From: Hamiltosporidium tvaerminnensis
Lineage: Eukaryota; Microsporidia; Dubosqiidae
Length of the DNA: 64,000 bases
Reading direction: 5' to 3'
NCBI GenBank assembly: GCA_022605425.2
Contig: CM061249.1
Coordinates: 1,054,001 to 1,118,000 of the forward strand
The notes beneath the pieces were generated by a model. The model was not told the DNA's origin and ran no database searches. It saw only the letters and a list, made by a program, of their open reading frames with translations. The position numbers and the translations under genes were made by a program. Shown piece by piece: positions 1,712 through 60,027 of the stretch (the stretch's first letter is position 1; each line of letters starts with the position of its first letter).

Positions 1712-1724
1712 GTATTTCTTTTTC

Positions 1725-2449
1725 AGGTGGAGGGAGGATAACCACAAAAAAAACTTTCTGCTTGGCAATGAGTGTGTGAAACTGGTGTGAGATCATTGTT
1801 TGGATTTTTAGTGGGAATAAAACCACACTACATCTTCGGTTGTTCCATGGGAGTTTGTATGAGGAGGAGAGGTCTAAGAAATGGAGAAACTTTTTCTACA
1901 AATTTATTTGTAGTTTTTTACGTAACCAGATTGCAGACCGCAGCTGAACATGTAGGTAATTGCCATGTAAAAGCATGGAAACCTAGCCTTGCTCACTCGG
2001 GTTAGAAGACTTAGCGCCTGCGAGATATAAAACGAAAAACCATTTAAAGCCAGGAAAGCTAAGTAGTAGGTTATACCTATTGGTATGACATTGCACTGTC
2101 TAGGTGGACCCCATGTAAATCTCTGAAATATATCTTAGCTAGAAGTTTATTGGGTTCAGAAAGTGTAGAGTAAGTGGGAATGCTGCATAGTCTTGGGGGA
2201 GCCCAGGGGGGGCTATGGCCTTCGATCACACTCCATGCAACGGACATAAACGAACTCCGGGCAACTGCCTCGCCTAGTAATCAGGTTCTACACACCTGGT
2301 ATATTAAAGTCTTTGGGACGTAGGTATCGCAGGGGTTACTGATGGAGTTTTGGGGTAGCAGTTATTTATGTTAAACCTAGAACTGCGTTAATGTCATGAA
2401 AACAAATATAACACTTGCCACTATTTTAAAAAACATATTTTTAAATAAA
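1725..2449 (+). mobile_element. SINE-like element copy S1, with 13 bp target-site duplication
   Basis: This is one of six copies in the window of a ~725 bp sequence. It begins (A)GGTGGAGGGAGGATAACCAC and ends TTTTTAAATAAA. It is flanked by a perfect 13 bp direct repeat, GTATTTCTTTTTC, at 1712-1724 and 2450-2462. It is clearly more GC-rich than its surroundings and has several short potential hairpins, such as CTACAAATTTATTTGTAG and CCATGTAAAAGCATGG. No conserved protein is encoded: the longest frame opens only at GTG and is interrupted in other copies. No convincing Pol III A/B box was found. The AATAAA-containing end could serve as a polyadenylation signal. The length is unusual for a classical SINE. 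It could also be an internally deleted non-autonomous LINE. Confidence 0.85.
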
Positions 2450-2610
2450 GTATTTCTTTTTCCAATAAATTATCTTTTAAAAAAATTTTATATTTTTATT
2501 TTAATATTTTTAAAAAATAATTACTTTAAATATCTAATTGTTCATTATTTCTACCTAAAAAATTATAAATTTAAATCTTTTAATTATTATCTATAATTTT
2601 TATTTAGTTA

Positions 2611-3130
2611 TTTTTATTTCAGATAAGACAACTATTATTCTTTTACTTCATTTAAGTATTTCATTTTTAATTAAATTCTTATTTTTATTTCAGATAAGAC
2701 AACTATTATTCTTTTACTTCATTTAAGTATTTCATAATTAATTAAATTCTTATTTCATCAGATCAGATAATATTTATAATCACATTTGGTGTTACAATTA
2801 TATCAAATATAAAAGATAACTAATAATTATTTGTGTAATTTATCGTTTATTATAAATATTATCTAATATGTTGAAATAAGAATCAATATTTGTAATTTTA
2901 TGTAATTTAAAACACATACTTATAAGATATAATATTTATTTTCTAAGGTCTTCTTCTTTTTAATACATCATATTTAATATAAAATAATAACTTAGAATTT
3001 CTAAATTACAATCTACATTTCCAATCTGAATACTAGAATTTGATATAAAATATAACTTAGAATTTCTAAATTACAATCTACATTTCAACTCTGAATACTA
3101 GAATTTGATATAAAATATAACTTGGAATTT
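2611..3130. repeat. Short tandem duplications (71 bp x2; about 65 bp x2)
   Basis: A 71 bp unit starting TTTTTATTTCAGATAAG is repeated at 2611 and 2682. A separate unit of about 65 bp, starting TAACTTAGAATTTCTAAATT, is repeated at 2988 and 3053 with a partial third start at 3118. Both are non-coding and AT-rich. Confidence 0.8.
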
Positions 3131-3540
3131 AAACAATTTAAACAATTTAAACTTACAAATACAAGATTTATTTGTTTAAAGAACATTTAAAGGGAAATAT
3201 TTCTATTACATATATTTTAACCAAATTTATTTATAATTAATTTAATATTTTTCTCTTTTATATACTTCTTCTCATACATATATTTTAACCTAATATTTAT
3301 TTATAATTAATTTAATTTGTAATTTCTTTGTTAAATATTTATTAAATTCTTAATAAATAATTTTTTTATTTCCAAATAATTTATTTATAGTGAATTGAAG
3401 GTTATTTTTACTTAAAATTTATTCTTAAATATTGCTGGTAAGCGTGTGGAAATTAACTAAATTTAAATTAATCAAAAATACTTGAAAAAATGGATTTTTT
3501 TTATTTAGATCAGTAGCTAAATACCAATAAATTAATATCT

Positions 3541-3660
3541 TTTACAAGCCTATTGGTCATCGCTTGGTTTATTTACCAATATATTATTATATTATTATCT
3601 TTTACAAGCCTATGGGTCATCGCTTGGTTTATTTACCAATATATTATTATATTATTATCT
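3541..3660. repeat. 60 bp direct tandem duplication
   Basis: Two adjacent 60 bp units differ at one position (TATTGGTCATCGC versus TATGGGTCATCGC). Nothing coding is visible in 3131-4170 apart from this duplication. Confidence 0.85.
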
Positions 3661-4179
3661 TTTATTTTTACATTTTTAGCAACTGATAAACAATTTCTTA
3701 ATTAAAATCCAGAATATTTTTTAAATCAGCATATTATTCTTGTTCTAATCTACTCGCTTATACTATTTTTAATGTAAAATTTATTTTCTGTTTATTCTAT
3801 TCAGTTTACAATCTATTTTTTATTTCTTATTGTTTGGTATTCATTCGTTTGAACCGTTTTTGGGTTTTCAAAAAAAAAACTGTCTTTCTATGAAGTATGA
3901 TGTAAAAGTCAATTCTATAATTGAAATTTCTATATTCGGTTTATCAAGAAAGTTATAATCTAACAATGTATATAATTATAAAGTATTATATTAACTTATA
4001 GTTTTCTTGTACCTCTGTATTCTGGTTTTTTTGATATTTTTCGAAGAATAATTGTTTTGATGAACATTATTATGAGTTTAAATAAATTTTATAAAAAAAA
4101 AAGCTTGAAAATATAAATTCAAGTTTAATTCTGTTTATTTATAACTGAAACTTTTTAGAAAATTAGTAAGAAAAGAAGT

Positions 4180-4450
4180 AAGAAAATACGAACCGAGTAA
4201 ATAAATTTGATTGTAATTTTATAAAAATTATATAAAAAAGCTTTTTATTAAAAAATTAGTAAAAAAATACGAATCGAGTAAATAAATTTGATTGTAATTT
4301 TATAAAAATTATATAAAAAAGCTTTTTATTAAAAAATTAGTAAAAAAATACGAATCGAGTAAATAAATTTGATTGTAATTTTATAAAAATTATATAAAAA
4401 AACTTTTTATTAAAAAATTAGTAAAAAATACGAATCGAGTAAATAAATTA
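4180..4450. repeat. About 81 bp tandem array, roughly 3.3 copies
   Basis: The marker AATCGAGTAAATAAATT recurs at about 4191 (as AACCGAGTAA), 4272, 4353 and 4433, giving a period of 80-81 bp. The units are nearly identical, indicating recent expansion or homogenisation. Non-coding. Confidence 0.85.
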
Positions 4451-4740
4451 TTAAATAAATTAAAAAACTTTTTATTAATTCTTTTATTATTATTTATTAC
4501 AATCTATAAAGGTAATTTACCCTACGTTAGTGCGAATATTTTTTTTGTCAATTAAAAAATTTAAAATTTTCTATTTCTGTAGTTTATTTTATATTTTAAG
4601 TTTTGATAGATACATGGATGAATATTGAAGTGTAATATAAGTATTCATACATAATTATTTTGTATCTTATATTTTTAGAACTTTTAAAATACTTCGAGGT
4701 GAGTATTTGGTGTTGAATTACTTAATTAACAATACAAAGA

Positions 4741-15780: not shown

Positions 15781-16149
15781 TTTAAGTTTTGATAGTAAAA
15801 CTTCTTTTTATATTTTATTTCTAACTTATTTCTAAGAATTAATTAAAATCTATGATTAAAGACTTTAAATAAAAAATTTTAATTTAAAATCTAAATTTTA
15901 TAAAATATTTTTAAAGAAAATACAGTTTTTTTAGGAAAGATAAAGAAATTATAAAATTAAAACTGTAAGTCATATGAATATATATTTTAAAGAAAATTTA
16001 AGAATTTCTATAATTTAAAACTAATCAGTAGAATAAATAAAAATGAATTATATAAAAGTAGAATGACTTAGAAAATTATTTGAAATAAATAATTATTTAA
16101 TAAATGAAATGAATAATTATTTTAAAGAATTAATATCAGTTTAAAAAAA

Positions 16150-17268
16150 TAAATATTATTTAATAAAATTCTGGGTAAACAAATTTTTCTCTTTTCTAAA
16201 TAATTCTTTCCACAATTTCAACCACTTCTTCTCTTCCTCCAACTCCAACTCTTCATTTATATTAGTTGTTGGTTCCTTTGCCGTGGTTATACCATCCAAA
16301 ATAAGGGGTAAAATATTTTTTGTATTTTCCTTTTTAACATCATCATCCTCGTTGTCTACTTGCTTTAAAGGGGGTATTGGTTGTTTATGTATCTCAGCTC
16401 CTAAAATAACACTTAATGATGCTCTCCCCCAGCTCTCCTCGGCATTTGGTCCAGACTCAAGTCCTCTCTGTCGATCAAAAGAAATTGTTTCGACTGTCTT
16501 CTTGAGTACTATGGATTGTATATATGCCTCTACATTCATGGGTATTTGCAGTCTCTTAACATACGTCTTATGGTATTTTGTCACAATACCGTCCCAGGTC
16601 ATCACATAAGGAATTATCTCTACACTGCATTTATAAATAAGACCCAACTCATTGGCTAATAGGTTATACTTCCTAAGCTTCTCTATTTCAACTATTTGAA
16701 GAGAGTCTTGGGATGTGATTCCTACTTCAATGAGGGTTATCCTATTATGTCTCTTGTCTAAAATAAATATATCTGGTCTGTTACACCGAATCTTGACATC
16801 AGTTTTTATTCTTGTGTCTACTCTTAGCTCTGCATACTCGTTATCAAGAATTTATTTAACTAATAGGCTTCTAAATGTTTCGAAGACTTAAACTTATATT
16901 TATTTAGCAAGAGTAAATGTATACATCGTACCACTTCATTATGTCGTCTAGTATAGTCATGACCAAGCATTTTTTCACATCTCGTCGCTAAGTGATCTAC
17001 TGTTTTCCTAGATTGGTTGCAGTGTTGACACATACCTTCTGCCCCCCAGAATACATTTCTATCCTGGATATAACAGAACACTGCTTCATCACGTGGTCTT
17101 ACACTTCCTTTCTTTAACCATCTTGAGGAGTCATTTACACTTACCCGCTCGTTATTTCTAGCGCTATATAACTTTGAATGTAGTTTTCGGCTTTTGATTT
17201 CGTTATATAGGTTAGCTAGTTGAGCTTCTTCCAATTTCTTTTTTGTGACTTCCTCTTCCAACAAAAAT
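16150..17268 (-). mobile_element. 5'-truncated LINE copy (zinc finger plus restriction-like endonuclease)
   Basis: It matches the C-terminal third of the 47.1-50.9 kb LINE. The upstream part (17,264-16,860) encodes the CCHC finger (CQHCNQSRKTVDHLATRC, spacing Cx2Cx8Hx4C) and a following HNEVVRCIHLLL helix. After a stop and frameshift near 16,855, a new frame runs to 16,156. It carries the endonuclease core (RIKTDVKIR, RPDIFILDKRHNRITLIEVG) and the C-terminal block ending near LFRKEK. The PD...D/E-x core of R2-group nucleases is recognisable. The 3' end CCAGAATTTTATTAAATAA matches the tail of the other copy. The 5' break is near 17,267. No clear target-site duplication was found because both flanks are A/T repeats. 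Confidence 0.88.
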
Positions 17269-20126: not shown

Positions 20127-23100
20127 ATGAATCAATTAGAAAAGATTTTCTCAAACATTTTATCTTCCACAAACAAATACCACAAAAAGCTTTTAATAAC
20201 AGATTTAACACTTCAAATAAAAGAATACCTCGATTTTACAACACCATTGTTACAAACAACATACACACTTCTTACTTCAGAAGTATGGGATGATCGTATT
20301 TTAGGCGCTACACTTCTTGGCAGTTTATATCCGTCACATATAAAATATAAAATAGATTTTAAAGATTTACCTTCTTTTTCTCTTCATTCTCATTCATTCT
20401 TCTCTACACGTATTACCTCTTATACTGAGTGTAGTGTTTCATTCCAGGAACAACAAAATTTAATTACTAAGAAGTTAGGACTAACACCTTTTGAACCAGA
20501 CAATTCACTTATTACTAAGAAGGATGTTATAACAGAGGAAATAAAGATAGATAATAAGAGGGGTGTTAGTAAAGAGGCTAGGAAGAGGGGTGTAAGTAAG
20601 GATAATAATTACAGGGGTGTTAATAAGGACCTAGATAGTTATAGGGGTGTTAATAAGGACATAGATAGTTATAGGGGTGTTAATAAGGACATAGATAGTT
20701 ATAGGGGTGTTAATAACAGTACTTATAAACAACAGGGTGTTAACAACTGTACTTATAAACAACAGGGTGTTATTAACAGTACTTATAAACAACAGGGTGT
20801 TAACAACCTATCAAATGAACAACAAGGTGTTAACAACACCCCATCCAACACTATATCCAATACACCTCCTATTCTTTCTAAAAGAGAAGAATTAGCACAA
20901 AAAAGAAAAAACAAACTATCATACGAAAAAGAAGAAAATGAAACAGAAGAAGTAAAAATACAGAACACAAACCATTTTTTTATAAAATTATATGAAAATT
21001 TACTTTCAGTTGAGTGGACCAAACGACACGGTGCTTTTTTAGGATTTTGTTCTATTTTTATGCAATTGAAAATGACACCTCTCAATTTGTATAATGAAAT
21101 GCATAAACAAAATAAGTATAAATATAACCAAACACCAGAAAAGCATAAAAATAAAGAAATTGTAGAAGAAGAAGAAGAAGAAATAAATAAGAATTCTAAT
21201 ATAAGTAATAAAGATAATACTAAAGATAATATAAGTAATAAAGATAATATAAGTAATAATATAAATAATAAAGAAATAAATACCTTAGATCATGATATAG
21301 ATAATACACACTCTAACAATACTATTCTACTTAATTCTACTCTTATATCTTCAATCCTACAAATACTATATCATGACAAATTTAATGACTTTATTTCAGA
21401 TAAAACAACAGCACCTGTAAGAGAATCTTCTGCACATCTATTATCTTTAATATTTCCTTTTCTTTCTATAAAATTACAAAATTATATTTTTAAGATTTTA
21501 TTTTCTTTTTTAGAAAATACAGATTGGCAAATACAATGCTCAGCTTTAAATTCTTTAATTTTGTTAAAAGAATTTATTATTTATAATAAAAATACAAATA
21601 ACAGTGTTTTTATTAATAAAATGGTTTGTTTAATGAAAAGTGAAGATGAGGATGTTAAATATCTGTCAGCAGACCTTATAATACCCTTTATTGATATGTT
21701 ATGCAAAATAAAGGGTGATAAGGATAATAGTAGATTAGAGGGTGTTAGTGATATAAAGGGAGTAGGGGGTGTTAGTAACAGTAGGGTAGAGTTAGAGGGT
21801 GTTAGTCACACTACAGATGAACAACACCCTTTAAATAATACATCATATGAACAACACCCTTTAGACTATTTACCAGGTGAACAACACCCTTTAAATAATA
21901 CACTATATAAACAAAACCCTCTTAGCAACAATACAGGTGAACAACACCCTGTTAACAACAATATAGAACAACACCCCTTTAATAATCTATCTAATACATA
22001 TAACACTTCTATTGATTCTTCTATCAATAACTCTATTGATACACCCTTTATTTCTATTAATACCCTTAAGGATAACACCCTGTTAACTAACATATCTTAT
22101 ACCTGTTGGATATCTTTACAAAATGAAAATGAAATTGCTCTTTCTAAAACCTCTATATTAAGACTTATAACAGAAATATATAAATTAGGAATTTTAAAAC
22201 ATTTTGATTTGAATAAAATAACACCTTGTTTTAGGTCACCTTTAATTGATGTAAGAAGTAGTGTTATTAGTATGATGGAATGTATAATAAAGGGTGTTAA
22301 GTATAGTGGTAGTGAACAAGAGGGTGTTAATTATAGTGGTAGTAAGGAAGAGGGTGTTAATGATAGTGTTATTGAGTTAGAGGGTGTTAGTAACACTAAT
22401 AGTAAACAAGAGGGTGTTAAGGATAAGAGTAGTAAGAAGGAGGGTGTTAATGATAGAGTAGGACTACAAGAGGGTGTTAATGAAATAATAGTGGAACAAG
22501 AGGGTGTTAATCATTATACTAATAATTATAACCCTAACAACAATACTAATACTTATAACCCTAACAATAATACTAGTAATTATCACCCTGTTAATAATAT
22601 ACCTAATGATACTAACGATAATACTAATACTTATAACCCTAACAATAATACTAGTAATTATCACCCTGTTAATAATATACCTAATGATACTAACGATAAA
22701 GACCTCTTACATCTTTATCCTATAAATAACACCCTTTTATCTAGGGACAGTTTAATAACAATATTTAAATTATTAATACATAACATTCTTATAGAAGATA
22801 ACACCTCTTTAAAAGAAAGATCTTTCTTATTATTTAAATTACTGTTAAATAACAATAATTGGTTAAGTAAGTATTTAAAACCTTTTATTATAGGAATAGG
22901 ACAGTCTTGTTATGATTATTATACCTTTTATTCTTATGAAAGTAATTCTTTATATTTTAACAGTGGAATTATTATTATTGGAAGAGAAAGTGTTATGGAT
23001 GGTAAGGTTATGTTATTAAAGGGTGTTATAGGATGTAAGGGTATAGAAAAGATAGAAGAAGAAGGAGATTTATATAGAAGGGTTATAATAAGAGTATATA

Positions 23101-28763: not shown

Positions 28764-29490
28764 CTTTATTTAAAAGTATCACATCTTTTTAAAATAGTGG
28801 CAAATGTTATATTTGTTTTCATGACATTAACGTGTTCTAGGTTTAACATAAATGACTACTACCCCAACACTCCATCAGTAACCCCTGCGATACCTACGTC
28901 CCAAAGCCTTTAATTTACCAGGTATGTAGAACCTAATTAATAGGCGAGGCAGTTGCCCGGAGTTCGTTAATGTCCGTTGCATGGAGTGTGATCGAAGACC
29001 GAAGCCCCCCCTGGGCTCCCCCAAGACTATGCAGCATTCCCACTTACTCTACACTTTCTAAACCCAATAAACTTCTAGCTAAGATATATTTCAGAGATTT
29101 ACATGGGGTCCACCTAGACAGTGCAATGTCATACCAACAGGTATAACCTGCTACTTAGCTTTCCTGGCTTTTAATGGGTTTTTATTTTATATCTCCCAGG
29201 CGCTAAGTCTTCTAACTCGAGTGAGCAAGGCTAGGTTTCCATGCTTTTACATGGCAATTACCTACATGTTCAGCTGCGGTCTGCAATCTAGTTACATAAA
29301 AAACTACAAATATATTTGTAGAAAATGTTTCGCTATTTCGTAGACCTCTCCTCTTCATAACAACTCTCATGGAACAAACAAAGATGTAGTGTGGTTGTAT
29401 TCCCACCAAAAATCCAAACAATGATCTCACACCAGTTTCACGCACTTTTTGCCAAGCAGAAAGTTTTTTATGTGGTTATTCTCCATCCAC
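28764..29490 (-). mobile_element. SINE-like element copy S2
   Basis: Full length on the minus strand, with 5' start GTGGATGGAGAATAACCAC at about 29,490 and 3' end CTTTTAAATAAAG at 28,764. It is close to S1 and S3. No matching flanking direct repeat was found. Its 5' end abuts, and appears to have replaced, the outer part of the terminal repeat of the mariner-like element that starts at 29,494. Later rearrangement may thus have removed the duplication. Confidence 0.85.
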
Positions 29491-38675: not shown

Positions 38676-38687
38676 ATTTAAAATCCT

Positions 38688-39399
38688 CTTGGCAATGAGT
38701 GTGTGAAACTGGTGTGAGATCATTGTTTGGATTTTTGGTGGGAATAAAACCACACTACATCTTTGGTTGTTCCTTGGGAGTTGTTATGAGGAGGGGAGGT
38801 CTAAGAGATGGAGAAACTTTTTCTACAAATTTATTTGTAGTTTTTTATGTAACCAGATTGCAGACCGCAGCTTAAAATTTAGGTAATTGCCATGTAAAAG
38901 CATGGAAACCTAGCCTTGCTCACTCGGGTTAGAAGACTTAGCGCCTGGGAGATATAAAAATAAAAACCATATAAAGCCAGGAAAGCTAAGTAGCAGGTTA
39001 TACCTGTTGGTATGACATTGCACTGTCTAGGTGGACCCCATGTAAATCTCTGAAATATATCTTAGCTAGAAGTTTATTGGGTTCAGAAAGTGTAGAGTAA
39101 GTGGGAATGCTGCATAGTCTTGGGGGAGCCCAGGGGGGGCTTCGGCCTTCGATCACACTCCATGCAACGGACATTAACGAACTCCGGGCAACTGCCTCGC
39201 CTAGTAATTAGGTTCTACACACCTGGTAGATGAAAGGCTTTGGGACGTAGGTATCGCAGGGGTTACCGATGGAGTGTTGGGGTAGCAGTTATTTATGTTA
39301 AACCTAGAACTGCGTTAATGTCATGAAAACAAATATAACACTTGCCACTGTTTTAAAAAAGATGTGATACTTTTAAATAAAGTAATTAAAAGTAAAGAA
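38688..39399 (+). mobile_element. SINE-like element copy S3, 5'-truncated, with 12 bp target-site duplication
   Basis: It starts at CTTGGCAATGAGTGTGTG, so about 35 bases of the 5' end seen in S1/S4 are missing. It ends with TTTTAAATAAAG followed by an A-rich tail (TAATTAAAAGTAAAGAA). The 12 bp ATTTAAAATCCT at 38,676-38,687 is repeated perfectly at 39,400-39,411. 5' truncation, a variable A-rich tail and a 12-13 bp duplication are the hallmarks of target-primed reverse transcription. The frame that is open in S1 is closed here by a TAA. Confidence 0.9.
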
Positions 39400-39411
39400 A
39401 TTTAAAATCCT

Positions 39412-46885: not shown

Positions 46886-47100
46886 GGGTTTTTAATGAAG
46901 ATTTAATAGAAATTATTAATGAAGATTTAACTGAAATTTTTAATGAGGATTTACCAGAAATTTTTATAAGAGGGCGTTATAAGACGAAATAGTGATTTAA
47001 TATATATGAGGGTTAGATATTATATAGAAATGGGTTTATAAATAAGAGAATATTAATGAATTTATTTAATAAAATTCTGGGTTAACAAATTTTCTCTCGT

Positions 47101-48027
47101 TTAACTAATTTCTTCCATCACTTTAACCACTTTATTCTCTTTTTCTACATCCGACTTATCATTAATGTCTATCGTCGGTTCCTCTGGTCTGGTTACGTCA
47201 TCTAAAATAAGGGGTAAAATATTTTTTGAATTTACTTGTTTAACACTATCTTCCTCGTTCTTCACTTCTTTTAAGGGGGGTGTTGGCTGTTTATGCATCT
47301 CAGCTCCTATAATAACACTTAATGACGCTCTCTCCCAGCTCTCTTCGGCACTTGGTCCTGACTCAATTCCTCTTCGTCGATCGAAGGAAATCATTTCGAC
47401 TGTTTTCTTAAGTACTATGGACTGAATGTATGCCTCTACATTTATGGGTATTTGTAATCTTTTAAGATAAGTCTTATGGTATTTTGTCACAATACCGTCC
47501 CATGTTATCACATAAGGAATTATCTCTACACTACATTTGTAAATAAGACCCAGCTCATTTGTTAATAGGTCATACTTCCTAAGTTTCTCTGTTTCAACTA
47601 TTTGAAGTGAGTCTTGGGAGGTGATTCCTACTTCAATGAGGGTAATCTTATTTCGTCTCTTGTCTAGAATGAATATATCTGGCTTATTATTTCGAATTTT
47701 GACATCAGTTTTTATTCTGGTGTCCACTCTTATCTCTGCATACTCATTATCAAGAATTTCTTGAACTGAGTTGCTTCTGATTCGTTTTGAAGACTTGAAT
47801 TTATATTTATTTAACAAGAGCAAATGTATACATCGTACCACTTCATTGTATCGTCTAGTATAGTCATGACCAAGCCTTTTTTCACATCTCGTTGCTAAAT
47901 GGTCTACTGTTTTTCTAGACGTGTTGCAGTGTTGACACACACCTTCTGCTCCCCAAAATACGTTTCTATCCTGGATATAGCAGAACACTGCTTCATCACG
48001 CGGTCTTACACTTTCTTTCTTTAACAT
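47101..48027 (-). pseudogene. LINE CCHC finger and restriction-like endonuclease
   Basis: A 308-residue frame. It has a CCHC finger (CQHCNTSRKTVDHLATRC, about residues 31-48), a helix, then the endonuclease core (VDTRIKTDVKIR, KPDIFILDKRRNKITLIEVG), with YKCSVEIIPYVITWDGIVTK and a conserved C-terminal block following. The PD...D and E residues expected of the PD-(D/E)xK fold of R2-group endonucleases are present. It is separated from the RT by a second one-base deletion near 48,030. The last ~60 residues are acidic, low-complexity and variable among copies. Confidence 0.88.
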
Positions 48028-48144
48028 CTCAAGGAGTTATTCACATATAGCAGCTCGTTACTTCTAGCATTATACAACTTTGAATTCATTTCGGTTTTCG
48101 ATTTCGTTATATAACTTGGCTGGTTGAGCTTCATCTAATTTATT

Positions 48145-49221
48145 TTAAGTGACCTCCTCTGCCATCCCGTATTTTACTTGTAAAAAGTCTTTTATTAGTG
48201 CAAGATGGGTTTTATTATCATTCTCCACCTTAAGGATTGCTGCTCTTCTGGTCGATGTTTCTTTAGATTTTTCCAGACAATCCAAGAGTTGCAAAAGCAT
48301 ATGTTCGCTTTTGAACTCAACACTATGAAGACCTCTCCCAAGTTCTGTTCTGGGAAGGTACAGACGCTCTTTACATCCTGGGCGAAGATGTATCTTGTTC
48401 TTTACTAAAACTGCACGTACTGCGTCATCCAACTTTGAGAAGTCGCCAGGTTCAAGTCGAAGTACACCTATATGATAGTTTATTAGAGATATCGCATGTT
48501 GATTGATAGCTTGAAATAAATTTCTTGCATTCAATCTCGTGCGGCAAAGTCTCTCTACCCTCGCTATCAGTTTGGTTTGTACTTCCTCAAACGACTTACG
48601 TGTTGGAATTCCTCTGCTATCTTCTATTATTCCGAGGTATTTGTAAACACCCATTCCTTCAAGAAGAGTAGCAGTATTCTCACAACACGAATCATTTGTG
48701 GCTGACTTCTCTCTGTTTATTTCTAATCCTATATTTTTCATAAACATTTTTACCTCCTCCGTCATCTTTTCAAGCGTTGTTCCATCTTTGGCAAGGAGCT
48801 TAAGATCATCAATGAACAAAAGATGATTGGTAGAGTGGGATGCATCCTCCGTTTGTATTGTCACCTTTGCGTATTCTTCATTGAGTTTACGGCTCAATGG
48901 ATCCATACACAGCACAAACAATAAGGGTGATAAACTATCTCCCTGTAGAATCCCCTTATCAATCTTCTTGTTCATAATTTTTTCAGACCCTACCGAAATA
49001 TCAATTTTCCATTTTGATATTGTTACCTTAATAAATTTCAGGATCCAATCAGATAAATTAAGGTTTTCGATGACTTGTGTCAAATAAGCATGATCTATTG
49101 AATCATACGCCTTTTTGACATCAATCCACGTTGCCTTAAGATTGTTTCCATACTCTTTATTAAGAGCAACATTTAGCAGGGCCTGCTCCTTCGCTCCTTG
49201 CACACCTCTCACTGCACCCAA
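48145..49221 (-). pseudogene. LINE reverse transcriptase, palm and thumb
   Basis: Continues the RT: WIDVKKAYDSIDH carries the first catalytic Asp, GILQGDSLSPLLFVLCM is motif B, and LLFIDDLKLLAKDG holds the catalytic Asp pair (I-D-D in place of the usual Y-x-D-D). KYLGIIEDS and the LVKNKIHLRPGCKERLYLPR thumb region follow. The catalytic triad is intact even though the gene is broken elsewhere. The frame ends at 48,145. The sequence beyond is related to the 17.26 kb copy but disrupted by a one-base deletion. Confidence 0.9.
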
Positions 49222-49875
49222 TTAATTATCTGCTAGTAACCCTCGCCTCTCTACCTCAAACTGAACAACTTTTGTAACACACTTTGTCGTCAGCTTGTAA
49301 AGGTTTGACATACAAGTTATTGACCTATAGTCGTAGCCTTTTTGTGGTACGCTTTTTGGAATGAGATACGTTAGCCCATGATAAAACCAATTAGCTTGTG
49401 GTGTTCCTTCAAAACATATGGCTTTCACAATATCATAAAGATACTTGTGAAGAGTCGTAAGTTTCTTGATATAAAAATTGTAGATCCCATCAATTCCGGC
49501 GGCTTTCCAGTTAGGAAGCCAATTGATAATATCTACAAATTCATCAAGTGAAGGAAACGTGGCCTGGTGAGTATCCGGAACGAAAGGTATCAGATACTCA
49601 TCATAAGTAACTATTTCATTATTTTTGTTCCACATTGTGGACCAAAAACTTACAATTTCGTCACGATTAACCACATGCTCGGATTCCACACGCTCAGACA
49701 GGCCACGATAATATCTACCTCGGAACAGCTCAAACATACGATTCTCTTTTCGGAATTGCTTCTTATTTTCGTACATCGCAAGTTTTTTTTCGTAAACAGT
49801 TATCAGCTCATTCTTCTTAACTAAAGCCTCCGATAGATCATTTGTTTTTTTTAGGTCTAAATTAAACTCTCGCAT
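49222..49875 (-). pseudogene. LINE reverse transcriptase, N-terminal motifs
   Basis: Contains the RT segment NWKAAGIDGIYNFYIKKL (motif 1/2 region), WFYHGLTYLIPKSVPQKG (motif 2a) and DYRSITCMSNLYKLTTKCV (motif 3), close to R4/Dong-type enzymes. It is in the same frame as the preceding 49,933-50,853 segment and stops at a TAA (49,222-49,224). The downstream sequence continues in frame with LGAVRGVQGAKEQ, the next RT motif, so the stop is a nonsense mutation inside the domain. Confidence 0.88.
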
Positions 49876-49932
49876 AATTTTTTTAAGACTTTTAGTTTGA
49901 GAAGAGGAGAGTTCTTCCCGTCTACGTGCTTT

Positions 49933-50853
49933 CTAGAGGATATCTTTTGAAAGTTTTAACACTGAAATTTTACTCTCAATGCTTTCTTTCCACGCTGATC
50001 TTGGCCTCTCTTTACGTGTTTCATCGTCATAACATACCTGGGCTGTCTGGATAATTCGGGCAACGTCTGTTATCGTCATAGGTACATGAGAGTCAGCATA
50101 TTCACCGATTATTCGATTAATAAGATCAAGAACTGTACTGTCAACCAATTCATTTGGAAGCTTTCGAGTTCGGACTACTACTTTTCCGATTTCCTCCTCA
50201 GATATTTTTTTGATATTACTCGAGTATTTTTCTCTCAGGCTTATAAATCGAGTAGTATCGGTCAAGGAACATGGCTCGGCGAGACAAGTGGCGATTCGAC
50301 GTCGCTCTCCATTCTCTTCCTGCCTAATTTCCTCTTCCGTCTTATTGTGTGCCATTCGTTTTAGCACATCGATAGTTTCGGTACAGGAGAACTTCTCATT
50401 ATAGTAGCTCTGTATCTCTTTCCATCCATTTCTAGGCATTCGGTCAAACCTTGTTTGTACTGCAAAAAAAACACATCGAATAAATTCTTGACGCTCGGCC
50501 TCTATAGATCTGAGTATGGATCGGAGTACAACGAGCCTTTCGGAAATAGGTATGGTACAAAGGTTTGGCCCACTAGCAGCTATATCTGGCCTAGGGGTCA
50601 CGGTGCTTGAATGCATAGGGTTAGATGGCGAGGGTATGGTGTTAAGCAAGCATACCTTTGTGCTTGTGTTTGCTTCGCTTGGTTGTATAGAAATGTTATT
50701 TATGATGGTGGATGGTGTGTATGAGCTTGGCTGTGGAATTCCCTGGTCGTTTTTACACTCTCTAATTACCTCATCCACTTCACTTGCCCTGTTTGCAGCC
50801 TTTATAATTTTTTCTTCTTGTTTTTCGCTGCCTACATATTTTCTTATACCCAT
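49933..50853 (-). pseudogene. LINE N-terminal region
   Basis: A 306-residue frame starting MGIRKYVGSEKQEEKIIKAA. It has a Ser/Thr/Pro-rich stretch (about residues 45-95) and then helical, charged sequence. No Cys/His zinc finger or Myb-like domain like those at the start of R2 proteins is obvious. A TAG at 49,933-49,935 stops it, and the next segment continues in the same frame, so this is a nonsense mutation rather than the end of a separate ORF1. Confidence 0.8.
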
Positions 50854-50907
50854 CCTTAGAATATTAATGATATAAGAATATTATGATATAAGAATATTAT
50901 GATAATA

Positions 50908-51636
50908 ATTTTTTTCAAAAATATCACATCGTTTTAAAATAGTGGCAAGTGTATTATTTGTTTTCATGACATTAACGCAGTTCTAGGTTTAACATAAATA
51001 ACTGCTACCCCAACACTCCATCGGTAAACCCTGCGATACCTACGTCCCAAAGCCTTTCATCTACCAGGTGTGTAGAACCTAATTACTAGGCGAGACAGTT
51101 GCCCGGAGTTCGTTAATGTCCGTTGCATGGAGTGTGATCGAAGGCCGAAGCCCCCCCTGGGCTCCCCCAAGACTATGCAGCATTCTCACTTACTCTACAC
51201 TTTCTGAACCCAATAAACTTCTAGCTAAGATATATTTCGGAGATTTACACGAGGTCTACCTAGACAGTGCAATGTCATACCAACAGGTATAACCTGCTAC
51301 TTAGCTCTCCCGGCTTTTAATGGTTTTTTGTTTTGTATCTCCCAGGCGCTAAGTCTTCTAACCCGAGTGAGCAAGGCTAGGTTTCCATGCTTTTACATGG
51401 CAATTACCTACATGTTCAGCTGCGGTCTGCAATCTGGTTACATAAAAAACTACGAATAAATTTGTAGAAAAGTTTCGCCATTTCGTAGACCTCTCCTCTT
51501 CATAACAACTCCCATGGAACAACCGAAGATGTAGTGTGGTTTTATTCTCACCAAAAATCCAAACAATGACCTCACACCAGTTTCACACACTCATTGCCAA
51601 GCAGAAAGTTTTTTATGTGGTTATCCTCCCTCCACC
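50908..51636 (-). mobile_element. SINE-like element copy S4 with 13 bp target-site duplication, inserted beside the LINE
   Basis: Full length on the minus strand, from GGTGGAGGGAGGATAACCAC at 51,636 to TTTTTGAAAAAAAT at 50,908. A perfect 13 bp repeat, TATTATGATAATA, lies at 50,895-50,907 and 51,637-51,649. It sits only 24 bases beyond the target-site duplication of the LINE copy. Without its own duplication it could be mistaken for that LINE's 5' leader. The tail differs from the TTTAAATAAAG ending of the other copies, as expected for a variable A-rich end. Confidence 0.9.
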
Positions 51637-51758
51637 TATTATGATAATATAATATTAATGATTAGGAATAATAAGGAATATAGAGGTTTTATCGGAGCTA
51701 AAAACATCGTTGATTTTGTTTATAAAATAGTAGATTATAATTAAATACTAAAATGCTT

Positions 51759-52690
51759 GGTGGATGGAGGATAGTCAGAGTTAAAATTTCTGGTTTAAAG
51801 ATTGGTTGAAAATTGTGTTTAGTTCATTGTTTTGGATTTTGAGTGAAGAAAAATACCTTACGTTTTTGAGCATTTCATGAGAATGTTTAAGGAAGAGGGT
51901 CGGCGAAAACTGCGAAACTCCTTCAACAAAGAAGGGTTGTAGTTTTTTTATGTAAATTAGATTAAAAATCATGTTTATATGTTGGAGGTGAAGATATGTG
52001 AATCGACGTATGTAGAGGTAGAATATCTCCGTTGATACAGTCAATATCATTCGAATAAGTGGGATTTGCCTTTAGCTGGCAAACTAACTGTCCTAAATTT
52101 AATGTCTAAGACAAATCTTGAATTTTTCCAAGCTCTTATCTAGTTTTGGATTTTTCTATTCATATGAAATTTCGCAAGTTTAAACTAATAATATTGGTAG
52201 TTGCAGCTTACATATGGGTAATGCTATATAAAACGTGTGAAATTTAGCCTTGCCTATTCAGTTTGAAGAGCTGATGTCTACGAGATACAAAAAAACATAC
52301 TTTTTAAAGAAACAGAAAAGCTTAATAGACGATTATATTTGCTGGTTTCACATCGCTAGGTTTAGATTGATTCAATGTAAGTCTTCGCGATATATCTTAA
52401 CTAGAAATCTATTCGGTTAAGGCTCTTAAGTTGCGTGAAAAAGACCGTTTGTCCCAGGAAAGGCCTATGTGTGGTTCGACTTGCGATTTTACTCCATTAA
52501 CGTATATTAAAGAACCTTTGCTGTTTCGCTCATTAAATGGGCTTTACACACCCTTTAGATGAAAAACTTTGGTACTTAGGTATCTTAGGGATCCGAATGA
52601 AGCACTGTGTTGTCTTTAGAAGTAAAACCAAAAACAGCGTTAATGCATTACAATTGCATCAAATATTACACTTAACAATGACCTTAATTA
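51759..52690 (+). mobile_element. Ancient, diverged SINE-like copy S6
   Basis: Blocks of similarity follow the S1-S5 order. GGTGGATGGAGGATAGTCAG comes at the start and TTCATTGTTTTGGATTTTGA next. TTTAGCCTTGCCTATTCAGT lies near 52,246 and CGATATATCTTAACTAGAAA near 52,392. ACTTTGGTACTTAGGTATCT lies near 52,568 and AACAGCGTTAATGCATTACA near 52,635. It is about 200 bp longer than the young copies, with an apparent insertion or partial internal duplication at about 51,990-52,150. Many substitutions separate it from them, so the family has been present for a long time. No target-site duplication remains visible. Confidence 0.75.
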
Positions 52691-53272
52691 AATTAAAAAC
52701 TTCGAATAATATTTTATCAATTATCGATATTTAGAGCAAATCAAGTGAATTTTTATATTTCTGTAAATAACAAATTATTCACTTAAATATTATAATTTAA
52801 GACTGTAAAGTTACAGAAAATTTTAACGAAGTAATTAATAATTATTGACACTTAAAAAGTTTTATGAATTTAAATCATGTGTCTACAAATACTATATATC
52901 TGAGCGTTTTCAAATGTATAACACTTATTTTTAAAGAAGCAGAGGTTTTAATAAAAAAATAAATTGTTTTAAACATAGAATATTGACATTTTTGTTGTTT
53001 TTCTAGACCAATTTCTAGTTTTTAATCTTCAAAATTCACATTTAATATTTACAATATATCATTTTGATGCTTCGATTCGAATAATGGAAGTAAATGTTTT
53101 CTTCTATGATATTTTTATTTCGAAATACACATAGATCAAAGATTTTATTCTTATAATTTCGCAATCTGTAACTGTTTTGTCTAAAAATTCCCTTTTTATA
53201 AAACCAATTTATTTAATTAAAGAAAAAACATTTTTATGAAAACCATAAAAGACTGATCTATATGCCTCATAG
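52691..53272. other. AT-rich spacer, nothing seen
   Basis: No coding frame, array or RNA gene was recognised between the old SINE-like copy and the paralogous-family gene. Confidence 0.5.
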
Positions 53273-55654: not shown

Positions 55655-56644
55655 AAAACAGCTTAGCAACCAGATGAAACATTTTTTAAACAGTAACTCA
55701 GTTTTTATTTTTTATCGTGGATTTTTATTTTAACTGTAATTTAGACATTTTAAGAAAAACTTTTTCTTCCTAAATTTTAATTCATCTAAAACCTTAAAAT
55801 TGAAAAAAAAGCTGCAATAATATAAAAAACACCTTGAGTGTAACATTTCTTCTCTTCCATTTTTTCAAACAAAATTTACGATGTTATATGTGCCACAAAA
55901 ATATCAAGTTTGTTTATAAATTTATAATTTCCCGTTAATTCTCACATACAGCGTTTGCTTGAAAGTTGTAGAAGCCAAGCGTACGTTATTATCAGAATGT
56001 CTTTGTTGCGAACTTAGAAACTTCATAACACCTCTGATTTACAGAATAATTTTAGGAAAAATAATCGCTTCTTTTCTGCAAAAATTTAATTGCAGGGATC
56101 TTCTAGAAATTTGCAAAAATTATTAAATTATATATTTTTTTCTGCTTTAACTGGTTTGAAATATCTAGAATCAGAAATTTCAAAATTCACTTTTTCTCAT
56201 TATATTTTCTGCTGTGTTTACCAAGGTCGATGTTAATTGAATGAAGAAGAAAAAACAATTTTTGTATTTTAAATATAGTTTAACCACAAAAAAACAGGAG
56301 TTCCTATGTGTAGTAACATCTCTCGAGGCACCTAGATTGAAAGTATCTTTGATAGAGACTGCTGTATCATCAAAATTAAAGGATTTTTTTAATCTGTGTA
56401 ACTAAAAAGTTCTTTCTTAAAGAGGAAAGGTTTATTACTTTGGTTCTTTTGTTACCGTTCTGCCACCATTTGGGTTTTCAAATAGAATATATTTTATATT
56501 TTATAAGAAAATCCCATAACGCATAATCATGTAGTAGAATACTCCACTATGCTTTGTTGATATTTTACTAAATGATTTTTTTTTCATTGTTCTGTAAAAA
56601 TAAATGAATTTGAGCAACGCAGGTCAAGAAACTTTTGATAACGA
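55655..56644. other. AT-rich intergenic, nothing recognised
   Basis: No coding region or repeat was assigned. Slightly GC-richer patches near 55,950-56,110 and 56,300-56,470 show no recognisable protein. Confidence 0.5.
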
Positions 56645-57240
56645 TATGCGAGATAAGAGTGAACACCAGAATAAAAACCGATGTCAAATTCGGAATAATA
56701 GACCTGAGATTCATATTTCATTATAGGTAGAAAGAAGATATTATACATTGAATTATTAATTGCTTCCCGAGATTCACTTAAAATGGTTGAAACAGAAAAC
56801 TTAATAAGTATGACTTGTGTGCCAATAAATTGGTTCTTATTTGTATGTATAATGTTAGAGATAATTTCTTATGTGATGGCATGGGACGGTATTTGATCAA
56901 AATACAGTAAATTATACTGCAAAATACTGCAAACACGAATGAATATAGAGATGTACATTCAATCAATAGTGCTTAAGAAGATTTTTGAAACAATTTTCTT
57001 TGATCGACGAAGAGGAGTTGAATCGAAACGAAATGCCGAAGAGAGTTTGAAAAGTTCAGAGATGGAAGTTATTGAGATATTTGAGGTGCACGAGGGGCCA
57101 ATACGTCCTTTAAGAATGTGTGTACCGAGGAAGATAGGGTTAAAATTTTTAAAAAAACCTAACCCTATTTCAGAAGGAGTAGTCACAATAGATAAACCGA
57201 TAGTACACATCAACAAAGAATTTAATTAGCAGAAAAAACG
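56645..57240 (+). mobile_element. Diverged 5'-truncated LINE fragment
   Basis: It begins with a frame reading RVNTRIKTDVKF, which corresponds to the endonuclease core RVDTRIKTDVKIR of the other copies. After frame changes it continues as MSYVMAWDGI, then MNIEMYIQSIVLKKIFETIF and FDRRRGVESKRNAEESL, matching the C-terminal block. The last open part (56,939-57,229) is only the relic of that block. Divergence from the 47 kb and 16 kb copies is much greater than between those two, so this is an older insertion. Confidence 0.8.
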
Positions 57241-57314
57241 TTTTGGTAAAATAGATAGAAGTACATAGTGTGTTTCAAGCAATATAATACCGCTTTGAAT
57301 CAATCTCATAATAT

Positions 57315-58655
57315 TTCGAGCAATATGACAATCCTTGCTATCGAAATAATAATTATTTTTCACAACAAAAAATTTAAAAAATAAAAGATAAACAGTACTT
57401 ACTATGGATTATTTAGAAATCATTTGTTCTACTTTAGCCTTCTGCAAATATTTAACATTTTTCGATAAGAGGAACTACGATATTCTCCTGTGATTCATTA
57501 ATTTTTTTTAAAAAAATATTCTCAGGTGAGACTCAGTACGCTCACCACCTCGAATTGCATTATTTTTCCAGACTTTAAATATATTTTCAATTGGATTAAG
57601 AAGTGAAGAGTAAAGAGGAGGGTGTTTTATTCGATACAAGGCAATTTCTTCATCATCATCCAATCCGCGATAGTGATGAATTCTCGCATTATTTATTACA
57701 AAGATAGGACTCAATATACATGCCATTAACAAATTTCATCTCCTAATAGATAATTTGGAGTCCTCTCCATTTACTGCCCTCTCATGAATCTTATGGTATA
57801 TTATACCATATTTATTTATCGCTGCGACAACCGAAATATTATAATTCAGGCTACAGTCACAAATAGGTACGCTAATTTCCCTCTCATATTACGACCTCTA
57901 CTGGAACGTGTTACTACCTCAAATCCAACTTCATCTAAAGAGACAAAGTTTTTGTCTTCGTAGGCAACCTCCAACTCACAAAAAATAGTTGTGTAATTGG
58001 TTCTGAGCTCAATTTTAGAAGGTGAATTTCTACGCCCAGGCACTAATAATACACGCTTTAGAGTATAATAGAACTCTCTTATTGCGCGATAAATTGTACT
58101 AGTTGACACATCAATATTAAACGTACTTTAGACACATTCTGCTAACCAATGCAGGGTTTTCGTACCCTTAAAATCCACATAAGTTTGTAAGCTCTCTTTT
58201 TTTCCAAAGGCAACTTTGAGCGCTTATCATCACCTCTTTTCTCGACAAATACCAGGCCGGTTTATAAATATCGTCAAATGATACTATTAACCGTTTGGTA
58301 ATTTATTCGATACATTGAGGTAATTGCAGACTAGAATGACCTTCCAATGTCTTTGCATTTATGCGTTCCCGATCGTATTGGAAACTATTTGTTTCCTCGG
58401 GTTGGAATGGGGGTTAGTAACGGCTTTTCGTTGCGTGATCCCATGTTTCAACAAGACACTTAAAACCCTTGTCCTTTTTACACTTTGTAAATACTGATGT
58501 CGCCTCGATTGAAACGCTATTTGTTCTCGTTGGTATTTTCATGAAAAAAAGTTTGACATGGGAGCCAATTTTTAATGAAATGAATTATTTTGCACATTTT
58601 TATTTGTTAAAAATAATTATTATATTCATTGCAAGGATAATTATATTGATCGAAA
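57315..58655 (-). mobile_element. Tc1/mariner (IS630-Tc1)-like element copy B, inactive
   Basis: Same family as 29.5-30.8 kb. The right terminal region contains up to four related units of ~20-23 bp (CGATCAATATAATTATCCTTG-like). The left one has at least two (CGAGCAATATGACAATCCTTG, then CTATCGAAATAATAATTATT). The minus-strand transposase is fragmented. The frame at 58,109-57,846 has STSTIYRAIREFYYTLKR (second helix-turn-helix) and FVSLDEVGFEVVTRSSRGR with the first catalytic Asp. The frame at 57,732-57,508 has FVINNARIHHYRGLDDDEEI, in which the second catalytic Asp is replaced by Asn (copy A keeps it), and LNPIENIFKVWKN with the third acidic residue. Earlier frames near 58,300 keep the N-terminal part. 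Confidence 0.82.
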
Positions 58656-59272
58656 AATTGTGATATTGATCGCAAGGATTATTATACTGATAGAAAAATC
58701 TTATATATTTGAGATTTGGTATACAGATCAGTGTTAATATTATTTTTACAATATAATTAAATTATTGTTGATTACAGCAAAATAAAAGGAATTTTGAGAT
58801 GACTTTAGCTATAAAATATTATTTTACAACAAAGTTAAATTATTGTTATGTATTGCAAACGAAAAAGAATTTTGAATTGAAAAAAGAATGACAGAAAAAT
58901 ACATTCAATTCTTTCTTAAAATATAAAAGTGAAATAAATTTCTATTTATCATATAAAATATTAAAATTTATTTTAATATTGAAATTATTTAGGTTGAATA
59001 TCGAGTCATATTTTTACCAAAAATTAAGTACAATAATTCCATTCTAAAAAACTTTAAAAAAAATGACGCTGATTATAAAAATAATCTCCGGATAGAATAA
59101 AGGTAACGAGAAATTGATTAATATAATTGAATATATCCTACTTTTGTGTTAAAATAATTATGTGTCACAAATAGAAAATATTTTTTATGAATATAATTAC
59201 TTCAGATTAAAAAGTCCTTGTTGTATTTATCTATATAAACATGAAATATTTATTTTATTTTAAAAACTAGAA
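58656..59272. other. AT-rich spacer, nothing seen
   Basis: AT-rich DNA between the mariner copy and the SINE-like copy S5. No coding frame was recognised. Confidence 0.5.
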
Positions 59273-59285
59273 TATAGATCGTAAA

Positions 59286-60014
59286 CTTTATTTAAAAATA
59301 TCACAGTTTTTTAAAACAGTGGCAAGTGTTATATTTATTTTCATGACATTAACGCGGTTCTAGGTTTAACATAAATAAACTCTACCCTAAAACTCCATCA
59401 GTACCCCCTGCGATACCTACGTCCCAAAGCCTTTGATCTAACAGGTGTGTAGAACCTAATTAATACGCGAGAAAGTTAACAGAAGTTAGTTAATGTCCGT
59501 TGCATCGAGTGTGATTGAAGGCCGAAGCCCCCCTCTCTAGGCTCTTTCAGGACTATGCAGCATTCCACTTATTCTATACTTCTGAACCCAATATACATCT
59601 AGCTAAGATATATTTCAGAGACTTGGATGAGGTTCCCCTAGACAGTGCAATGTCATACCAACAGATATAACCTGCTACTTAGCTTTCCCGGCTTTGAAGG
59701 GTTATATTTTTTAATCTCCCAGGCCCTAAATCTTCTAACCCGACTGAGCAAGAATAATTTATCATGTTTTTACATGGCAATTACCTACATAATCAACTGC
59801 GATCTTCAATCTAGTTAAATAAAAAACTACAAATAAATTTGTAGAAAAAGTTTCTCCATTTCTTAGACCTCTTCTCCTCCTACAAACTTCCTTCGAACAA
59901 CCGAAGATGCATTGTGGTTTTATTCCCATTAGAAATCCAAACAATGGTCTTTACATCAGTTTTACACACTCATTGCCAAGCAGAAATTTTTTTATGTGGT
60001 TATCTTCTCTTCAC
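59286..60014 (-). mobile_element. SINE-like element copy S5 with an imperfect 13 bp target-site duplication
   Basis: Full length on the minus strand, with the 3' end TTTTTAAATAAAG at 59,286 and the 5' end GTGAAGAGAAGATAACCAC at 60,014. The flanking repeats TATAGATCGTAAA (59,273-59,285) and TATAAATCGTAAA (60,015-60,027) match at 12 of 13 positions. The copy has more substitutions and small deletions than S1-S4, so it is of intermediate age, consistent with its slightly mutated duplication. Confidence 0.88.
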
Positions 60015-60027
60015 TATAAATCGTAAA

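Follow-up and report, generated by a model that had tools for sequence, protein, structure and literature searches.

A long SINE-like retroposon family and its likely partner LINE in the microsporidium Hamiltosporidium tvaerminnensis

Trypanosomatid genomes harbour short partners of autonomous LINEs, SIDER among them, and the target-site duplications (TSDs) of RIME, NARTc and SIDER are near 12 bp. In the accessible text of PMC2996970, the sequence that RIME and NARTc have in common with their LINE runs the length of the element and includes the 5′ end. The available parts of PMC2996970 and PMC3118788 present EhSINE1 of Entamoeba as a long non-tRNA SINE of 500-600 bp with a LINE partner. A separate paper title describes the endonuclease of EhLINE1 as restriction-enzyme-like. 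TSDs of 4-14 bp are given for the AfuSINEs of Aspergillus fumigatus in the portion available. As for microsporidia, the parts of the literature that were searched gave no detailed description of a SINE, and a single genome table lists the class, with 0.18% 'SINE' in N. bombycis (PMC3614468), the sole mention of the word in the text available. The same table lists Dong-R4 as the LINE type of N. bombycis, and among the retroelements of Microsporidia sp. MB Dong-R4 ranks first in abundance according to the accessible text of PMC13174016. A previous sequence-only reading of the locus described here knew of no described counterpart in microsporidia, a statement that EhSINE1 and the table of PMC3614468 show to be too strong. 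The available text of PMC10542269 attributes 25.45% 'other' repeats to this large-genome microsporidium, which parasitises water fleas, and the family reported here probably accounts for part of them.

The stretch of DNA analysed, referred to as the window, comprises 64,000 nt and contains five near-complete copies of the SINE-like element plus a decayed one (Table 1). The four copies listed by the sequence-only reading were all located at their positions together with their flanking repeats; its list missed, however, a full copy at 28765-29490 and a relative at 52203-52421, for which the alignment used in the analysis spanned about 51990-52760. The copy at 28765-29490 adjoins another repeat that starts at 29494.

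Table 1. Features of the SINE-like family and of its likely partner LINE in the window (identities of SINE-like copies are to the first copy).
Feature	Position	Strand	Detail
Fragment, same LINE family	171..653	+	96% to L044, an active-subfamily copy
TSD left GTATTTCTTTTTC	1712..1724	+	13/13 exact repeat of 2450-2462
SINE-like element, full length	1725..2449	+	ends and flanking repeat; first copy, reference for identities
TSD right GTATTTCTTTTTC	2450..2462	+	13/13 exact
Older 3′ part, same LINE family	16147..17262	-	81% to L044
SINE-like element, full length, without clear TSD	28765..29490	-	92.8%
TSD left ATTTAAAATCCT	38676..38687	+	repeat found at 38676 and 39400
SINE-like element, 5′ end short by 34-36 nt	38688..39381	+	95.1%
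Transduced tail GTAATTAAAAGTAAAGAA	39382..39399	+	from the L021 tail and target site, or those of its duplicate L110
TSD right ATTTAAAATCCT	39400..39411	+	direct repeat
LINE 13-bp TSD, 3′ side (AGAATATTAATGA)	47047..47059	-	direct repeat
Likely partner LINE, degraded, open frame in pieces	47061..50853	-	starts at ATG, ends ...TTATTAAATAAA
RT domain of the partner LINE copy	within 48145-49221	-	RVT_1 E=1.5e-22
LINE 13-bp TSD, 5′ side	50858..50870	-	direct repeat
TSD TATTATGATAATA, 3′ side of element	50895..50907	-	repeated at 51637
SINE-like element, full length	50908..51636	-	94.6%
TSD TATTATGATAATA, 5′ side of element	51637..51649	-	repeat of 50895
Decayed old SINE-like copy	52203..52421	+	~70% identity in best stretch
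Diverged LINE relative	56612..57261	+	74% to L044
TSD TATAGATCGTAAA, 3′ side of element	59273..59285	-	12/13 vs TATAAATCGTAAA
SINE-like element, full length, older	59286..60014	-	86.3%
TSD TATAAATCGTAAA, 5′ side of element	60015..60027	-	12/13 vs TATAGATCGTAAA

The unit is 727 nt long and the duplications lie directly at both sides, which rules out the possibility, raised by the earlier reading itself, that it belongs inside a longer element. Its 3′ end is fixed, with AAATAAA in 51 and TTTTAAATAAA in 48 of the 54 copies that align to the end of the element, followed immediately by a G in 36 of these 54. In 34 of the 36 such copies with a clear TSD, varied sequence of 0-11 nt separates this end from the duplication, and no poly(A), A-rich or simple-repeat tail was seen among the 54 ends, so that the variable, A-rich 3′ ends first claimed had to be given up. 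The 5′ truncation noted before is real for the copy at 38688 but rare as a trait, since 19 of 20 copies sampled by the 3′ motif reach nt 1-5. In agreement with the claim that no protein is conserved, each of the six reading frames of the element carries 10-17 stops, and the longest stretch without one is 77 aa. Two window copies supplied four open stretches for a Pfam search, none of which had a match near the cut-off (best E 0.067). The body of the element matches no tRNA, 5S or 7SL RNA, and thus lacks the head of a strictly canonical SINE: ARAGORN found no tRNA in it, no Rfam family reached its cut-off under gathering and lax thresholds (lax matches fell far below it), and Pol III A and B boxes were no better than in shuffles. 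Moreover, internal T runs count against Pol III transcription, which is unlikely here because the element holds three of T5-T6. Exact 24-mers of the element had 0 matches in IMG/VR and 0 in GTDB contigs, and the one exact pattern joining the end of the element to its start had 0 occurrences genome-wide.

The genome searched comprises 21,638,905 bases in 17 contigs, where 30-mers from the 5′ end and the middle of the element gave 521 and 560 matches, respectively (≤3 mismatches; reversed controls 0), the three copy counts being 521/560/456 with reversed controls at 0. If all 560 middle matches were full length (560 x 727 nt), the family would occupy ~0.4 Mb, or ~1.9% of 21.6 Mb. A near-exact direct repeat (score ≥10) was present around 29 of 36 flanked copies, compared with 1.6% of 1,260 mispaired flanks. 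The sample of 20 copies picked solely by the exact 3′ motif, which is the only one blind to age, showed a clear TSD in 8 (1.8% of 380 mispairings), and a further 20 places, 19 with the exact 5′ motif plus L110, in 13 (1.3% of 380 mispairings). These figures bear out the TSDs as the retroposon signature for which they had been taken; their lengths vary and are mostly 12-14 bp. The sequence-only reading had considered that a lack of duplications in most copies would speak against it: among 56 flanked copies, 38 have a clear one, but 12 of the 20 age-blind copies do not, and in the whole aged population the majority may be without it. TSDs were found in 31 of 35 copies with at least 94% identity to the first copy and in 7 of 21 below. 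In the age-blind sample, their loss with age is weak and not clean (4/6 copies diverged <3.5%, 1/6 at 3.5-6% and 3/8 above). A search of the genome with one decayed copy, in which 40 of 69 candidates were scored, found no close relatives among those 40; the top non-self match was 71% identical, and the best identity, 75%, covered short stretches.

The copy at 38688 shows that the element moves through an RNA intermediate, as the earlier reading had proposed. Over the compared sites it is 100% identical to L021 (C17:643126-643853), and the 18 nt that follow its end match the 3′ flank of another copy, L021 or L110. A 24-mer over this junction occurs at three loci only in the genome, and the other two have common flanks and TSD, being duplicates of the source locus. 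The 3′ flank was therefore transduced, and the same copy is 5′-truncated. For another copy, L010, the tail (GTAATTTAGTG) occurs once in the genome and no source locus was found.

A candidate for the enzymatic machinery lies in the same window. The recently active LINE family has a reverse transcriptase domain (RVT_1 E=2.8e-27 in copy L041), and residues 976-993 of its protein, CQHCGKSGKTVDHLATRC, fit the CX2-3CX7-8HX4C knuckle, a spacing taken from the accessible text of PMC5678591. A PD-(D/E)XK-like candidate, RPDIFILDKKKNKITLIEV, was recognised by eye at residues 1060-1078, where Pfam gave no match, and among the solved structures nearest to the LINE in sequence are L1 and R2 proteins. TSDs flank 20 of the 22 LINE copies evaluated (2.6% of 462 mispairings), two of 24 pairs having been left out for one end that did not fit the end pattern. 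Their median length is 14 (20 LINE copies) versus 12.5 for 38 SINE copies (Mann-Whitney P 0.34). Moreover, target-site profiles were compiled for 42 distinct SINE insertions and 19 LINE insertions, leaving out sites with a TSD score <10, a length >18 or a filler >12, as well as those whose TSD string recurred. The two profiles correlate with r = 0.80, a value reached in 0 of 2000 shuffles; T occupies position -8 in 33/42 SINE and 15/19 LINE sites, and position -2 in 34/42 and 17/19. The last 9 nt of both elements, ...TTAAATAAA, are identical and AT-rich, and the common terminal sequence is limited to them. The agreement in terminal 9 nt and in target preference, with TSDs of similar size, suggests that this LINE, with RT, CCHC and, by motif, a candidate restriction-like endonuclease, is the likely partner of the SINE-like element. 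Two AT-rich places ending in ACTTTTAAATAAAG (window 39770 and 41644), considered as LINE tails, matched no repeat family among the sequences compared.

How much the source RNA has changed can be judged from old copies. Four SINE copies diverged by 19-30%, which had been retrieved for their resemblance to the present-day element, have 48.0 joint differences per pair versus 42.6 expected under independent decay (583 sites). LINE places were taken without those <12% diverged and without L031-L039, which belong to the subfamily of the window copy and are represented by it. In 10 of 15 pairs they have 92-161 joint differences versus 24-35 expected; in the five pairs with the most diverged place the values are 23-30 versus 19-24. 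Between the majority sequence of nine older SINE rows and the consensus, 12 of 727 sites differ; these rows include L061, just 3.7% diverged with a deletion set aside, and the four old copies were preferred. Because the old copies have so few ancestral differences in common, the source RNA appears nearly constant, which suggests that it hardly changed while the LINE did, some change having occurred. Covariation in support of a fold was not obtainable from the copies, since the source sequence hardly varies, and propagated variants were tested against private ones instead, leaving out three segmental duplicates (L055, L017 and L110). The mean rank of fold disturbance was 0.31 for propagated (n=30) and 0.46 for private variants (n=110), the latter control lying slightly under neutral, with a pairing-change value of 0.46 and an energy value of 0.43 (standard error 0.028). 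Without positions 302-330 the propagated value was 0.38 (22 variants), so part of the effect comes from one variable loop. The overall fold energy of the element is unremarkable (z -1.76), and it is the variant test that suggests a structural constraint on the RNA, whose predicted helices hold pairs 111-220, 174-183 and 293-326.

Such constancy would also be expected if all copies were dead retropseudogenes from one slowly evolving host non-coding RNA gene, like those of 7SL or U6. The full length of almost all sampled copies, the similar 5′ and middle counts and the apparent structural constraint of the RNA fit this explanation as well, but the template for the copy at window 38688 was itself retroposed and bears its own TSD, the 29 sites with variants common to at least 6 of 58 young copies mean that several sources coexist, and no known Rfam family emerged; we regard it as unlikely. 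A LINE derivative by internal deletion, in the manner of trypanosome RIME or NARTc, would account for the similar TSD size and the last 9 nt, but it is very improbable, given that two LINE copies compared with the SINE match it in words of 10-14 nt only and that the 5′ ends are unlike (GTGGAGGG versus ATGGGTA). A cut-and-paste DNA element such as a MITE, suggested by a short, non-coding and abundant unit, can practically be dismissed, as by eye the ends GTGGAGGGAGG and TTTTAAATAAA form no inverted repeats, TSD length is variable instead of fixed, and there are a transduced 3′ flank and a truncated 5′ end.

With TSDs of variable sequence, retroposon ends, no coding capacity and an RNA intermediate, the element is most likely a SINE in the broad sense of a non-coding retroposon that depends on a LINE. 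Given its TSDs, its constant 3′ end, the predominance of full-length copies and the 3′ transduction, together with the LINE-like TSDs, end and target, we are quite confident that it is a long, non-autonomous and non-coding SINE, whose ~727-nt RNA is copied into new sites by the resident LINE with its reverse transcriptase and putative restriction-like endonuclease. The LINE protein would recognise the SINE RNA near its UUAAAUAAA end and nick AT-rich DNA ~8 bp downstream of a TA step; cDNA would be primed at the nick, leaving duplications of 12-14 bp. Mobility may depend on an intact sequence and fold over the whole RNA, and this would account for the almost frozen source. More tentatively, and with considerable doubt, the element could be a mobile structured RNA functionally required over its whole ~727 nt, serving as a helper in the docking of the LINE protein or the ribosome, or else being a captured cellular RNA. 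If so, a fungus-related parasite would host a non-tRNA SINE class held constant by selection on RNA structure: the RNA would have stayed essentially the same as the partner LINE changed lineage and the copies diverged in up to a quarter or more of their bases. A SINE-like family and a matched, recently active LINE in one genome make partner choice directly testable, and a long-lived constant RNA without the usual SINE head bears on what a LINE protein needs beyond the last few bases.

Altogether, the long SINE proposed here is, like canonical tRNA/5S/7SL SINEs such as the AfuSINEs, non-autonomous, non-coding and flanked by TSDs, but it is longer than usual for them and differs in having no tRNA/5S/7SL similarity, internal T5-T6 runs and A/B boxes at the level of shuffles. 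As with trypanosomatid RIME, NARTc and SIDER, it would be the short partner of an autonomous LINE, without the sequence in common that RIME and NARTc have with theirs, as judged from two LINE copies. By motif, the likely partner LINE, with its RT, CCHC and candidate RLE-like motifs, may be compared with the Dong-R4 LINEs of microsporidia. A likeness is also seen with EhSINE1/EhLINE1 of Entamoeba histolytica which, from the available descriptions, is also a long non-coding retroposon with TSDs, no tRNA/7SL head and T-enriched targets. These descriptions give EhSINE1 ~70-100 bp of 3′ sequence in common with its LINE, versus the 9 terminal nt found here, and internal repeats of 26-27 bp, versus a nearly frozen source sequence. 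The microsporidian element thus resembles the amoeba SINEs and sets itself apart from them by its unusually unchanging RNA.

The SINE-like element, a non-coding repeat of ~727 nt, is a real and recently active retroposon. The four copies named by the sequence-only reading were found, with their flanking repeats, at exactly the positions it gave, and similarity searches added two further copies in the window (see the table below). One of these, the near-complete fifth copy, shows no clear target-site duplication (TSD); the candidate tried for it, a 10-bp match to the 3′ flank located 1.4 kb off past the adjoining repeat, was unconvincing. The genome containing the window comprises 17 contigs and 21,638,905 bases; the published assembly is described as having 21.64 Mb, 17 contigs, an N50 of 1.44 Mb and 26.6% GC (PMC10542269), and the GC content is 42% in the SINE-like element and 39% in the frame of its likely partner, a LINE. 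Genome-wide matches to 30-mers of the element with up to three mismatches numbered 521 for the 5′ end, 560 for the middle and 456 for the 3′ end, the last count being low partly because its pattern covers an A-run of varying length, and the reversed 30-mers used as controls gave 0 matches each. The similarity search scored the best 40 of 1,365 first candidates and so yields no copy count.

Repeats and a long open frame located in the window (window positions)
Feature	Position	Strand	Remarks
SINE-like element, first copy	1725-2449	+	reference for identity figures
SINE-like element	38688-39399		truncated
SINE-like element	50908-51636
SINE-like element	59286-60014
SINE-like element, fifth copy	28765-29490	-	near-complete; by sequence similarity; no clear duplication
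SINE-like element, decayed copy	around 52203-52421		by sequence similarity
LINE, degraded	47061-50853		own 13-bp duplication
Another repeat	29494-30822		~80% copy, opposite in orientation to the next
Another repeat	57314-58634		~80% copy, opposite in orientation to the previous
2529-aa frame	20127-27716		SNF2 and helicase-C domains, many internal repeats

Under a fixed scoring rule, strict enough for one mismatch in a 12-bp repeat to give a failing score of 9, a TSD score of at least 10 was reached by 29 of 36 copies, compared with 1.6% of 1,260 mispaired flank pairs. The 3′-motif sample, taken from the first 22 exact matches to the 3′ motif regardless of their 5′ ends (two second matches, each 340 bp downstream of another, were skipped), showed TSDs in 8 of its 20 copies against 1.8% of 380 mispairings, and a further set of 19 exact-5′-motif copies plus the copy L110 in 13/20 against 1.3% of 380; the sets include the segmental duplicates L007/L017, L054/L055 and L021/L110, which carry the element between like flanks elsewhere in the genome. 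Duplications measured 12-14 bp in 23 of 38 cases (range 10-23, median 12.5). They were present in 31/35 copies at least 94% identical to the first copy and in 7/21 below that level, and in the 3′-motif sample in 4/6, 1/6 and 3/8 copies diverging from the consensus by <3.5%, 3.5-6% and more, respectively; older copies thus often lack a recognisable TSD, with an uneven age trend. Sampled copies are mostly full length, since 19 of the 20 in the 3′-motif sample extend to nt 1-5 and one begins at 357; incomplete ones include L061 (with a deletion), L115 (which stops at 569) and the window copy at 38688. Among 54 copies aligned to the end of the element, the terminal bases were AAATAAA in 51 and TTTTAAATAAA in 48, and the base directly following was G in 36. 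In the 3′ flank of the copy L117 (C1:661643-662510), the tail is doubled, AAATAAAG then TATTTAAATAAAG, ahead of the duplication, as if reverse transcription had restarted or slipped at the end of the element.

The RNA INTERMEDIATE evidence comes from the window copy at 38688, which is followed by GTAATTAAAAGTAAAGAA and then by its own 12-bp duplication. L021 (C17:643126), another copy of the element, is followed by GTAATTAAAAGTAAAGAA too, and there the final 14 bases of the string form the TSD of L021, present at the left side as well. A 24-mer across the transduced junction occurs genome-wide at three loci, the window, L021 and C17:602385 (L110), the last of which is a duplicated segment of the L021 locus, its printed flanks matching those of L021 on both sides. 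Moreover, no compared site differs between the window copy and L021. The shared tail and this identity show that a transcript of the L021/L110 locus overran the element by at least 18 nt before its reverse transcription into the window, during which the 5′ end was lost, and also that a retroposed copy is able to act as a source.

A search with the reverse transcriptase segment of the window LINE listed at least 114 places from 1,219 first candidates. Twenty of them tie at a score of 691.0, with open frames of 1236-1300 aa in 18, which suggests recent activity of one subfamily; the window copy belongs to another, which differs by ~17% at the 3′ end. In L041, one of the intact copies, the frame spans 1,253 aa (RVT_1, E=2.8e-27) and contains CX2CX8HX4C at 976-993 and RPD...E at 1060-1078; its knuckle spacing fits that reported for RLE LINEs (PMC5678591). 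From 24 LINE copies with both ends, the 22 fitting the start and end patterns were evaluated (of the two left out, one starts TTGGG and the other ends TTAAATAAT), and TSDs were found in 20 of them against 2.6% of 462 mispairings; by this selection all 22 begin at ATG and have AAATAAA-type ends. Between duplication and ATG they carry 0-13 filler bases. In 23 of 24 copies with a 5′ end (L041, L067-L069, L070-L108; window 50853) the LINE starts exactly at ATG, without a 5′ UTR, so that it must either lack a leader or have a promoter outside or inside the element. Minisatellite-like units TTATTATATTGATCGAAAAA / TTGCAAGG recur close to LINEs (L041, about 345-500; 3′ flank of L036).

Duplication lengths of the SINE-like element and the LINE showed no detectable difference (P 0.34), and the use of A and T by position from -12 to +2 correlated at 0.80 between 42 distinct SINE and 19 LINE sites, a value equalled in 0 of 2000 shuffles. 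Both prefer T at positions -18, -8, -4 and -2 and A at -17 and -7, with -18 and -17 falling outside the correlation span, and the ~10-bp spacing of TA steps suggests helical phasing. Otherwise, the element has just 10-14 nt words in common with two LINE copies. The retroposon is very probably LINE-dependent, and its movement is well explained. Another repeat of the window, whose two copies have related terminal stretches, contains peptide pieces such as VIDNARIH / NPIENIF, which we take to be reminiscent of an IS630/mariner-type transposase.

The six frames of the element hold 10-17 stops each, and tests of its body for Rfam families, tRNAs and Pol III boxes were all negative. Four old copies, 19-30% diverged from the consensus (653 substitutions), jointly differ from it at 48.0 sites per pair against 42.6 under independent decay (5.4 more than expected, with 583 sites compared; 40 vs 42.5, 49 vs 35.5 and 63 vs 51.9 as the extremes of individual pairs), and the majority sequence of nine rows classed as old or older departs from the consensus at 12/727 sites, several of which rest on a tie or a margin of one or two votes. 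For LINE places compared with the active-subfamily LINE, joint differences reached 92-161 sites against 24-35 expected in 10 of 15 pairs, a contrast that is partly one between subfamilies, and 23-30 against 19-24 in the remaining 5, which involve the most diverged piece. These counts suggest a change of about 1-2% in the SINE source as against a change of lineage in the LINE, an unexpected near-constancy of the source that is estimated from few old copies, which were picked for their resemblance to the present-day sequence and aligned against the consensus. In mid-age copies substitutions are strand-asymmetric (G>A 31% vs C>T 13%; the consensus has 184 G and 120 C). A second unexpected result was that the 29 sites with variants common to at least 6 of 58 young copies had a mean pairing probability of 0.42 vs 0.57 for base-matched sites (40/5000 draws as low), and private changes one of 0.62. 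In silico, 30 shared variants ranked 0.31 for fold disturbance (0.38 for the 22 variants outside the variable loop 302-330) and 0.33 for energy change (neutral, 0.5), while 110 private variants, a slightly sub-neutral control, ranked 0.46 and 0.43 (standard error 0.028). The overall fold z-score was just -1.76 in sense and -0.51 in antisense (60 shuffles each). Altogether, there is moderate evidence that a folded RNA is the object of selection for spread.

Neither the H. tvaerminnensis genome paper (PMC10542269) nor a survey of microsporidian transposable elements (PMC7313128) has words starting with 'SINE' in its main text, and 'SINE' appears once in PMC3614468, in the N. bombycis row of a table. 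The closest described relative in kind is EhSINE1, of 500-600 bp, with no tRNA head, a LINE partner and T-enriched targets (PMC2996970, PMC3118788), whose LINE has, from the title of a cited work, a restriction-enzyme-like endonuclease. A strict definition of SINEs, with a tRNA or 7SL region carrying A and B boxes (PMC2996970), excludes both elements, for which reason that of H. tvaerminnensis is filed as SINE-like. EhSINE1, however, has 70-100 bp in common with its LINE, whereas the H. tvaerminnensis element does not.
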